Assembly (NCBI RefSeq): GCF_002443295.1
Contig: NZ_BAOS01000017.1
Span: forward strand, 62,001-126,000
Source: Candidatus Scalindua japonica
GTDB taxonomy: Bacteria > Planctomycetota > Brocadiia > Brocadiales > Scalinduaceae
DNA length: 64,000 bases
Reading direction: 5' to 3'
Shown here: positions 769 to 4,322 of the stretch, one piece after another
Layout: every line of letters begins with the position of its first letter
Position numbering within the stretch: position 1 is the first letter of the stretch
Position numbers and translations under genes: made by a program
The notes under the pieces: model-generated
The model's database searches: none
The model's input: only the letters and a program-made list of their open reading frames with translations
Told to the model about the DNA's origin: nothing

Positions 769-886
769 AAAACTCAGACCAGTAACATTTATCTGTTTCA
801 TTAGGATCAACCTTGACATTTCATATGTGACAGCATTTGAGGTGTCCCGCACATGTAACCAGTTAATTTTGTAAGTCTACACCGTT

Positions 887-911
887 GGGAGTATTCCCAT
901 TATTTTGTAAA
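887..911 (+). repeat. Left terminal inverted repeat of the insertion sequence
   Basis: It starts with GGGAGTATTCCCATT and ends TTTTGTAAA. The outermost 12 bases are themselves a small dyad (GGGA, spacer GTAT, TCCC), so each end could fold into a hairpin. The 8-bp target duplication occupies 879-886 just outside. Confidence 0.9.
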
Positions 912-926
912 ATATAAAAAAACATC

Positions 927-955
927 TTGACATCCTCTTTCTTTTCAGCGATACT
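927..955 (+). promoter_or_regulatory. Promoter of the insertion-sequence operon
   Basis: The sequence shows a -35 TTGACA at 927-932, a 17-bp spacer and a -10-like GATACT at 950-955 (4 of 6 consensus positions). Predicted initiation at about 961-963 coincides with the ATG of the methylase at 962, and no Shine-Dalgarno sequence precedes that ATG. The first gene may therefore be translated from a leaderless mRNA. Promoter calls by eye are uncertain. Confidence 0.5.
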
Positions 956-961
956 GCTTTT

Positions 962-1627
962 ATGAATTATCCAGGAGGCAAAGGAGGAGTATTCCAAAAG
1001 TTAATCAATCTTATGCCACCCCATGATGTCTACATAGAGACACATTTGGGCGGTGGCGCAGTTATGCGGAACAAACGTCCTGCCAGAAGTAATATTGGGA
1101 TAGAATTAGACCAGGATGTTGTTGAAATGTGGACGAATGTTAAACCACCAGGTTTTGAATTGGTCCATGATGACGCAATTAATTATCTGAATGATTATCC
1201 TTTCACTGGCAACGAGCTGATATATTGCGACCCACCGTACCTTCGCGAGACAAGAAGGAAGAGTGGTCGGCTCTATAAATATGAATATAGCCATAAAGAC
1301 CACACGGTACTTTTGGAATTATTGAAATCACTTCCCTGCATGGTGATGATATCCGGTTATGAGTCGCTTTTATACAGAGAGTCTTTGAAGGGATGGCATA
1401 CACATAGTTATCAGGCGGCCTGTCACCATGGTGTGGCGACAGAGTGGCTATGGATGAACTATAATATTCCGGTGGAACTACATGAATATCGTTATCTTGG
1501 CAATAACTTTCGTGAACGAGAACGGATAAAGAGAAAAACACAAAGGTGGACGGCGAGACTTCAATCAATGCCAATATTAGAGCGCCAGGCGTTACTCTCT
1601 GCGATGGATATAGTCAGGGAACAATAG
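962..1627 (+). CDS. D12-class N6-adenine DNA methyltransferase (IS passenger gene)
   Basis: The 221-residue protein begins MNYPGGKGG, the FxGGK-type SAM-binding motif I of Dam-like enzymes. IETHLGGGAV follows at about 25-34, and the catalytic DPPY tetrad is at 90-93 in the segment ELIYCDPPYLRE. This is the organisation of class D12 (alpha-group) adenine-N6 methyltransferases, which transfer a methyl group from S-adenosylmethionine to adenine. The motif at the very N-terminus supports this ATG as the true start, although it lacks a ribosome-binding site. The gene lies wholly within the inverted repeats of the insertion sequence and precedes the transposase by 23 bp, so the two are probably co-transcribed. 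The target sequence is unknown. No restriction endonuclease gene is adjacent, so it is an orphan methylase, perhaps modulating transposition or protecting against host restriction; that role is inference. Confidence 0.88.
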   Translation: MNYPGGKGGVFQKLINLMPPHDVYIETHLGGGAVMRNKRPARSNIGIELDQDVVEMWTNVKPPGFELVHDDAINYLNDYPFTGNELIYCDPPYLRETRRKSGRLYKYEYSHKDHTVLLELLKSLPCMVMISGYESLLYRESLKGWHTHSYQAACHHGVATEWLWMNYNIPVELHEYRYLGNNFRERERIKRKTQRWTARLQSMPILERQALLSAMDIVREQ

Positions 1628-1650
1628 AAATATTTTAAGAGGAGATATTT

Positions 1651-3066
1651 TTGGGTTTTGCGGCGAGAAAAGCAGAGTCATCAGAGAACTGGAGAACTTT
1701 ATTTTATGACTTTTTGGACAAGCGACTTGACAAGATTGAGCGAGAGTACCCAATGGAAGATTTAGGAGAAATCTCAAAAGCTGTTTTTCAGGAAAGATCC
1801 GAAATATTGGGTCAGATGATCCTTGGATTGATAAAGAGGAAGTTCGGTCATTTATTGAATCAGCAAAATTGTGACTGCCCCGATTGCGGCAAAAGCATGC
1901 AAAGGCACGACAAATTATCCAGGACAATCCAGACCCTTGCGGGTCAATTTGAATTGGAGAGACCTTATTTTTATTGCAGAGCGTGCAGTTTTGGAAATTA
2001 TCCATTAGATGAAGCCCTTGGGTTGTCTCGATCCTCGAAACAGTATGATATACAGGATGTTGAAGCCTGGTTGTCTAGCGAAACCGCTTATGAGACGGCC
2101 AGCGAGACCTACGAGAGGATAACTGGTGTAAAGCTAAGCGAACATCATATGCATGAGGCCACGAATACCATAGGTCAGGAAGTGGGGATTTTAGATATCT
2201 GTCCGTCTAAAGAAGAGATTCACAAAAAGATAGAAAACATCTCAAAGAATAAGTTTCGTCGTCCCATTATGATGCTCGCCCTGGATGGAGCCCACGGCCC
2301 GATGCGTCCAGAGCCCAGCCCTCACCGCCGCAAAGAGAAAAGAGGAAAAGGAGAATGGAAAGAGATTAAAGGTTTTAGGCTTTATCTCATCGATGGTACA
2401 AGCATTAATCATTTAATCAGCTGGCATCAGGTCTGCGAAGATCACGAATTAGCTCAAGATCTAGTGAAGATCAAGGAGGCAGGTCTTATCCCCGAAGCGG
2501 AGATACGCTTGGGAATCATAGGAGACGGAGCTCACTGGATTTGGAACCGTTGCAAAGAGATATTTCCCTCAGCAAAAGAAATCCTCGACTACTACCATTG
2601 CTCAGAGTATGTACATGGTGTGGGTAACGCACATTATGGAAAAGAGACAAGAGAGTCTCGCCAGTGGTGCGAGGCGACTTTGACAAGAATACATTTTGGC
2701 GACCACGAAGATGTGCTTGGCGGTCTTGGAAAGATGAAAGCGCAAACTCAAGAGGTTCAGGATAAAATTGATAAGTTTTATACCTACCTTACAAATCATT
2801 GCGAAAAGATGCATTACGATACCACCAAGCGAGGAGGGTATCACATTGGTAGCGGTGCGATTGAAAGCGCTAATAAATTCATTAGCCATACAAGGCTTAA
2901 ACGATCAGGAGCTTGGTGGTATGCCCAAAATGCTAATAACATGCTCAAGATCAGATGTGCGAAATATAACGGTACGTACGATAAAATTATCGAAAAATAC
3001 AAAAAAGACGACCAAGAAAGAATTAAAAACAAAAAATCTAGGAAAAGTCTCCGACTCGTTAAATAA
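1651..3066 (+). CDS. ISKra4-family transposase
   Basis: The 471-residue protein starts at TTG behind a good ribosome-binding site (AAGAGGAGA, about 1636-1645). The N-terminal part holds a zinc-ribbon-like set of cysteines (C76-x2-C79 and C109-x2-C112). The DDE core shows LALDGAHG with D212, GIIGDGAHWIWN with D292, and IGSGAIESANK with E405, followed by RLKRSGAWW. The GDGAxWIWN and GSGxIESAxK signatures are typical of ISKra4 transposases. The protein appears full length, without frameshifts. The stop lies 1 bp before the right inverted repeat. Position and spacing suggest an operon with the upstream methylase. ISLre2 was considered, but the C-terminal motif fits ISKra4 better. Confidence 0.9.
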   Translation: MGFAARKAESSENWRTLFYDFLDKRLDKIEREYPMEDLGEISKAVFQERSEILGQMILGLIKRKFGHLLNQQNCDCPDCGKSMQRHDKLSRTIQTLAGQFELERPYFYCRACSFGNYPLDEALGLSRSSKQYDIQDVEAWLSSETAYETASETYERITGVKLSEHHMHEATNTIGQEVGILDICPSKEEIHKKIENISKNKFRRPIMMLALDGAHGPMRPEPSPHRRKEKRGKGEWKEIKGFRLYLIDGTSINHLISWHQVCEDHELAQDLVKIKEAGLIPEAEIRLGIIGDGAHWIWNRCKEIFPSAKEILDYYHCSEYVHGVGNAHYGKETRESRQWCEATLTRIHFGDHEDVLGGLGKMKAQTQEVQDKIDKFYTYLTNHCEKMHYDTTKRGGYHIGSGAIESANKFISHTRLKRSGAWWYAQNANNMLKIRCAKYNGTYDKIIEKYKKDDQERIKNKKSRKSLRLVK

Positions 3067-3067
3067 A

Positions 3068-3092
3068 TTTACAAAAAAATGGGAATACTCCC
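3068..3092 (-). repeat. Right terminal inverted repeat of the insertion sequence
   Basis: This is the reverse complement of the left end with a single mismatch (an A in the left end is T here). The second copy of the ACACCGTT target duplication follows at 3093-3100. Confidence 0.9.
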
Positions 3093-3100
3093 ACACCGTT

Positions 3101-3721
3101 TTATCCTTCAGGGACAGACTCATTCTCTATTTCTACGTTTTTTATCATAAATATAAATTCATAGTTTTTTAAATAAGAGTCAAACTGGATAGGCAAAATA
3201 AGAAAAAAAGTAGAATCTTTAAGAACCTTCCCATCTCCCTCATATGAGTACTCCGGAAGCATACCATGATCCAAATAGTCAATTTCTTGACCTGTAACTG
3301 AAGTCCATCCATCACCAAAATCCCCTCCGGGTCCCGGCCAAATATTTATCCATATATTCCCCTCGCTTATTGATTTTGGGCCAACCCTTATTGGATTTAT
3401 ATAGCGGTTGTTGGATATATAATTCCACATCTCAAAAGAGTACCTCCATCCAAATAGAATATTGTTAGATTCTCCCGATGGGCCTATATATTCTGCCTTG
3501 TCCGCATCAAAATATATACTGTTTTCTGTCTTGTTATATATAGACACCCAGATGTGTTCGGAAGTGGGGACAAATTGGAATGAAACGTCCTTATCTTCGA
3601 ATTTGAGATCTTCTACATAAGGATCTATAAGCAAAAAACTATACTGATATGGACGGTAAGTACAACCGGCAAAAGACAATAACAAAGTTATAAAGAAAAT
3701 TTTTCTTAATATTAAAAACAC
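3101..3721 (-). CDS. Hypothetical lipoprotein
   Basis: The 206-residue protein has an N-terminal signal (FLILRKIFFITLLLSFAGC) ending in a lipobox with the acceptor cysteine at residue 20, so it is predicted to be lipid-anchored after signal peptidase II cleavage. The mature part is rich in aromatic residues and contains no motif I recognise; its alternating pattern suggests beta structure. The insertion-sequence target duplication starts immediately after its stop codon, so the gene survived the insertion but lost its original 3' flank. No clear operon partner is visible. Function unknown. Confidence 0.7.
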   Translation of the reverse strand: MFLILRKIFFITLLLSFAGCTYRPYQYSFLLIDPYVEDLKFEDKDVSFQFVPTSEHIWVSIYNKTENSIYFDADKAEYIGPSGESNNILFGWRYSFEMWNYISNNRYINPIRVGPKSISEGNIWINIWPGPGGDFGDGWTSVTGQEIDYLDHGMLPEYSYEGDGKVLKDSTFFLILPIQFDSYLKNYEFIFMIKNVEIENESVPEG

Positions 3722-4322
3722 TTATTTATTAACAGGATTTAAATGTTACCGCATTTGATAACCACTACTCTGCAATCTCTCCCGGTTTTTCACTATTCAT
3801 AAGGTATACTTCTTTCATCTTCTACTGTTTTTCAATGGCTTATATCAAACCGATACTGTGAAGCGCCCCCCCATATCGATTAATATTTGAGCCAGTGCCG
3901 GAGTTTTATTCGCAACCAGTGTGCCTCAGGAATCAGTCTGGTTCGGTGCAGACATTCAGGTTTCGCTTCCTCTCTGTACAGTTTTACTTTGTTTAAATAA
4001 AGCCTCCTCAAGACACTCTTTTGTAAAAATCCCATTTAAGACAGAGGTTCACCCAACAATTTTTAGTGCTCCCCTTAGTAGTTGGGATTTATAAAAACCT
4101 TATGCAACACCTTAAATCGAAGTAACTTACTACCGTTATTCTAAGCAAAACAACTAAAATATCAATTAAAATAATAAAAGCGACACACATTATTATATTT
4201 TCGAAAGAATAGATAAAAGGTTTAGGTAAAATTGCTTAAAATATCCTTTTTTACAACCAGAGTTTTTCTTTTTTTAGCAGACTAAGGATCTACACACTTA
4301 AAGATAAAACGGTAAATCTATG
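3722..4322. other. Intergenic region without a supported gene
   Basis: About 600 bp, low in GC near 4120-4320. The minus strand has one 51-codon open frame (3880-4035) that I do not recognise and would not call. No RNA gene, transposon end or convincing terminator was seen. Confidence 0.5.

Follow-up and report, generated by a model that had tools for sequence, protein, structure and literature searches.

An ISKra4-family insertion sequence of Candidatus Scalindua japonica with its own adenine methylase and a candidate self-limiting promoter

In this study we describe an intact ISKra4-family insertion sequence of 2,206 bp, located at 887-3092 in a 64,000-nucleotide stretch of Candidatus Scalindua japonica DNA (the window), which contains only a methylase gene and a transposase gene, on the same strand and 23 bp apart. 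The methylase belongs to a clade found in front of several unrelated transposase types and is preceded by a promoter that is conserved among its homologs. In the model that we put forward, at slightly under an even chance, the methylase restrains its own operon and thereby limits the production of both methylase and transposase.

Results

Architecture of the element

The element is bounded by terminal inverted repeats (TIRs) of 25 bp, 96% identical with one mismatch, and flanked by a perfect 8-bp target site duplication (TSD), ACACCGTT. Its terminal 15-mer occurs at two sites in the whole window, both of them element ends, where 0.16 would be expected by chance. The TIRs, the TSD and two intact frames 23 bp apart had been pointed out in the original prediction, and all are confirmed. 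The features are as follows.

879-886, direct repeat: left copy of the TSD, ACACCGTT
887-911, forward strand: left TIR, GGGAGTATTCCCATTATTTTGTAAA, also a weak inward-facing hairpin with a T-run
927-955, forward strand: promoter TTGACA-N17-GATACT, its -10 element ending 6 nt before the ATG, with no Shine-Dalgarno sequence
962-1627, forward strand: solitary D12-class N6-adenine DNA methyltransferase, 221 aa, DPPY at residues 90-93
986-995, forward strand: pseudo-end GGAGTATTCC within the methylase gene, apparent left end of the C28 copy
1638-1653, forward strand: GAGGAG, resembling a ribosome-binding site, and the transposase's TTG start codon, which lies 23 bp past the methylase stop
1651-3066, forward strand: ISKra4-family transposase (NF033572), 471 aa, TTG start
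3068-3092, reverse strand: right TIR, also an inward-facing terminator-like hairpin
3093-3100, direct repeat: right copy of the TSD

The transposase scores 251.8 bits against NF033572 (ISKra4, cut-off 205) over model positions 15-421 of 422. Members of the ISKra4 family have TIRs starting with GGG and TSDs of about 8-9 bp; here the ends likewise start with GGG, and the TSDs measure 8, 8 and 9 bp, with 9 bp also in a relative. As a departure from the family as it is known, the window element has an upstream methylase with its own promoter, in an operon with the transposase. Both ends, read inward, form a weak hairpin followed by a T-run, and these hairpins may block transcription coming from outside. 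No RNA families were found within the element.

The methylase and its family

The methylase is assigned to the D12 class by its score against PF02086 (31.8 bits, cut-off 22) and by its DPPY motif, which is invariant in 23 homologs. Against TIGR00571 (Dam) it reaches 41.1 bits, the cut-off being 114.85, and it is not classed as a Dam (GATC) enzyme. The predicted structure (mean pLDDT 88) shows a Rossmann methylase fold, and the closest fold to this model is E. coli Dam, with a TM score of about 0.6; the protein is thus Dam-like by predicted fold. It is a short form, with only a brief stretch between motif I and DPPY (residue 90), where Dam has a longer region.

Its nearest relatives outside transposons are the Upf31.0-type solitary methylases of IncP-1 conjugative plasmids, which share its length and motifs at 52-53% identity. 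With 97% coverage at 53% identity and no restriction gene in the element, the protein falls within this solitary type. Plasmid homologs were found in 176 plasmid records, 130 of them typed as conjugative; solitary methylases of temperate phages are also among the nearest relatives. The protein matches PADLOC models for orphan and for type II methylases.

The dN/dS ratio is 0.23 between the window methylase and that of the relative L085, and 0.13 between two IS66-borne methylases (C25 and L087); the remaining pairs give 0.06-0.18, but with dS near saturation. The gene is under purifying selection and has stayed functional across elements, and the window copy would encode a working adenine methylase. 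The L085 gene (2116-2778) is a mosaic: about nt 121-240 match the IS66-borne type at 87-97% identity and the remainder is mostly nearer to the ISKra4-borne type, a pattern that suggests recombination between elements.

Copies in the host genome

The genome from which the window comes (4.81 Mb, 47 contigs) was searched for further copies. Counting that of the window, four nearly identical copies lie at separate sites; three retain the complete methylase region and the fourth is shortened. The C27 copy is 100% identical to the window copy over 2,206 bp, but its TSD is ATGCCGGT. The C34 copy (C34:108393-110598, L003) is 99.6% identical and has a 9-bp TSD, CTTGTAGCT. Relative to the window copy it has eight substitutions plus a single deletion, which without exception fall in the left end or the methylase. 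The transposase shows no difference and is intact, and the methylase reading frame is shifted. Gene conversion is a doubtful origin for these differences, as the variant bases match no single homolog consistently.

The first base of the shortened C28 copy (C28:165332-167438; L004, L012) corresponds to position 100 of the element, which falls within the methylase gene. At its left end, GGAGTATTCC is similar to the true end, GGGAGTATTCCC; a direct repeat of its own, GATAAACAT(G), flanks the copy. The promoter and the methylase start are lost and the transposase is intact, so that this copy looks like a promoterless derivative produced by transposition from an internal pseudo-end.

Since copies in one genome carry different TSDs, the element, methylase included, has evidently moved as a unit, and the identical copies at different sites imply that movement was recent. 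The insertion sequence may well be active, or have been so until recently. These copies bear out the proposal that element and methylase move together, as do relatives from other genera that are full-length and share the ends of the element.

Relatives of the element in other genomes

Other anammox genomes contain elements with these ends and this gene order whose DNA is 77-81% identical, the full-length ones at 77-80%; several of these relatives are decayed. One of them, in another family of the order, can be followed from TIR to TIR at 77% DNA identity, methylase included, and has a 9-bp TSD, CTTTCGTAC. Across 62 genomes of the order, all close transposase relatives for which the preceding region is available have the methylase there. 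The next transposases, in 392 genomes of the phylum, are distant ISKra4-like proteins (mostly 25-35% identical) which, unlike that of the window element, have no methylase nearby; the one match that does belongs to a remnant of this very element. A search for same-ended elements lacking the methylase, proposed with the original prediction, has been carried out, and none was found among close transposase relatives in these collections of 62 and 392 genomes. By this comparison the methylase-transposase arrangement is shown to be old and conserved.

One methylase clade before several transposase types

The IS-borne methylases form one clade (support 99/95), whose genes immediately precede transposases of at least four types: ISKra4, IS66, IS1634-like and PF13808-type. 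The two genes share a strand in every type, the methylase being the 5' one. In the host genome itself, methylases 72% identical to that of the window precede an IS66-type transposase, and an IS66 element elsewhere (L091) has the order tnpA, tnpB, methylase, tnpC inside the repeat GTGTCCTTCCGG. The methylase is next to an IS1634/DUF4277-type transposase in L088 and to a PF13808-type transposase in L090, from a Nitrospirae bin; bin labels in this set, such as Altiarchaeota, may include binning errors. No convincing inverted repeats were found for the L088 and L090 elements, whose contigs end too early. A second PF13808-type pair occurs in Scalindua rubra (G016, L035), and in both L090 and L035 the methylase stop overlaps the transposase start (ATGA).

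At least 22 contig ends of the S. rubra assembly stop in one methylase-bearing left end (e.g. L104, L035). The left ends and the PF13808-type transposase sit on different contigs, and we infer that they belong together. This repeat probably fragments the assembly, and an IS21-type istA/istB element splits one of its copies.

These associations suggest that mobile elements have acquired this methylase together with its promoter again and again, as a working part. In the host genome, contig C13 holds one decayed IS66 remnant with no methylase adjacent. Separately, a direct duplication of about 4.67 kb at C1:40500-49000 (L014) includes a truncated IS66-type element and methylase, and could be real or an assembly effect.

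The promoter and a candidate operator

The sequence directly 5' of the methylase ATG is predicted to be a promoter of the sigma70 type, TTGACA-N17-GATACT. The usual start distance from the -10 element falls on the A of the AUG, and the mRNA is therefore predicted to be leaderless. A promoter matching at least 9 of 12 positions in exactly this register (17-nt spacer, 6 nt to the ATG) precedes 10 of 12 IS-borne homologs; it is expected in 0.23% of shuffles and was seen at 2 of the 2,219 ATGs of the window. Off-register cases are the S. rubra copies, with 8 nt to the ATG, and L111, with 7 nt.

Plasmid, chromosomal and viral homologs are preceded by similar promoters. That of the Upf31.0-type methylases, TTGACA-N17-GATGCT, has a clear palindrome; it differs in lying 35 nt from the start codon, with a Shine-Dalgarno-like sequence, and in serving an operon with no transposase. 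Viral homologs (L127, L130, L140, L146, L147), one of them only 31% identical, have a TTGACA-N17-GATGCT-like promoter, often followed by GCAG, and an operator-like promoter may mark the whole methylase family. In Pseudomonas, a homolog with a perfectly palindromic promoter (L096, 4001-4675) adjoins an AAA ATPase and a TOPRIM-like gene (1628-3816) that look like a defence pair.

Among 21 homologs, plasmid and viral ones included, C5 of the spacer is invariant and the -10 element starts with G rather than T in 20. In the middle of the spacer, 4.48 of 7 palindromic positions pair, versus 1.4-2.1 at other centres (permuted-halves test, P = 0.012, on promoters that are related and not independent samples). 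The palindrome is clear in the promoters of L096, L123 and L086. Among the IS-borne promoters alone the excess pairing at the main centre is not significant (P = 0.28), and the window's own promoter has almost none (p = 0.99). An operator palindrome in the window copy was accordingly dropped, and the claim is limited to the family. For the family, the pattern points to a shared operator and the palindrome in the spacer hints at autoregulation. The simplest candidate to act on this operator would be the methylase itself, because no other gene is shared by all the contexts. As similar promoters also stand before plasmid and viral homologs that have no transposase, autoregulation, if it exists, is older than the link with insertion sequences and need not concern transposition.

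Discussion

The model that leads our analysis, self-limiting control of methylase and transposase, would work as follows. Since the mRNA from the element's own promoter would be leaderless, transcripts from outside, which would also meet the end hairpins, would give little methylase, so that output would depend on that promoter. On entry into a cell free of the methylase this promoter would fire, giving a short burst of both proteins. As the methylase builds up, it would bind or methylate the partly palindromic spacer and -10 region, and the operon promoter would shut down. Gene and promoter would together make up a small switch that limits itself, and this would account for its recruitment on several occasions. 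The frameshifted methylase beside an intact transposase in C34, the loss of the methylase start in C28 and the near-absent palindrome in the window's promoter all speak against this model. A broader proposal is that the methylase gene and its leaderless, self-repressed promoter are a portable control module, captured from plasmid- or phage-type methylases by unrelated DDE transposase families (ISKra4, IS66, IS1634-like and PF13808-type), through which an insertion sequence senses a resident copy and limits its own transposition; this we consider rather unlikely.

The main rival, to which we give about three chances in ten and which takes up the original prediction's idea of protection from restriction, is that the methylase is an anti-restriction passenger: it would modify the DNA of the donor cell, plasmids and phages included, so that outgoing copies survive restriction, with transposition left unregulated. 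The kinship with solitary methylases of conjugative plasmids and temperate phages and the matches to the PADLOC models agree with this, and purifying selection is explained equally well. However, it leaves unexplained the fixed place before the transposase in all types, down to the stop/start overlap, and the gain would be shared by the whole replicon rather than by the insertion sequence. That the methylase was simply trapped between the ends and has no role for the element is improbable. Such a passenger could decay as in C34 and C28, where the transposase stays intact, and be missing beside the C13 remnant, but its presence in every readable close relative across genera, the purifying selection and the company of several transposase families appear to contradict this reading already.

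In IS10, IS50 and IS903, host Dam acts on GATC in the end or the promoter. As in those elements, adenine methylation is proposed here to limit transposition; there the methylase is the host's, whereas the window element brings its own. The original prediction drew on this case, suggesting that the methylase may control the timing of transposition as Dam does for IS10. In such a scheme it would mark ends or promoter, and the hemimethylated DNA behind the replication fork would be the active form. The distant similarity to the Dam fold and the adenines in the promoter hexamers and ends are in keeping with this idea. Nevertheless, neither the ends nor the promoter contain GATC, the first one being at 1796, the protein is far below the Dam cut-off, and no site was recognised as common to the ends of different elements. 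Classical Dam/GATC control was therefore judged unlikely and the timing claim does not hold in that form; replication timing in general has perhaps one chance in seven. Control through the operon's own promoter is better supported.

In the literature searched, no ISKra4 or IS66 element is described as bearing a methylase; the parts of PMC9296519 and PMC2770080 in which both words occur describe no such methylase-bearing element. The element has the outline of a passenger-gene insertion sequence and departs from it in that one promoter-gene unit is shared by several unrelated transposase families, in an operon with the transposase. ISfinder uses the term tIS for insertion sequences with a non-transposase passenger gene between their ends. 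Insertion sequences, the simplest mobile elements, are normally limited to a transposase. The repeated occurrence of this methylase and promoter before transposases of unrelated types suggests that DNA methylation encoded by the element itself is a general answer to a problem faced by such elements, be it self-restraint or survival in new hosts. These two possibilities make opposite and simple predictions, so that self-regulation of small elements without host Dam becomes directly testable.
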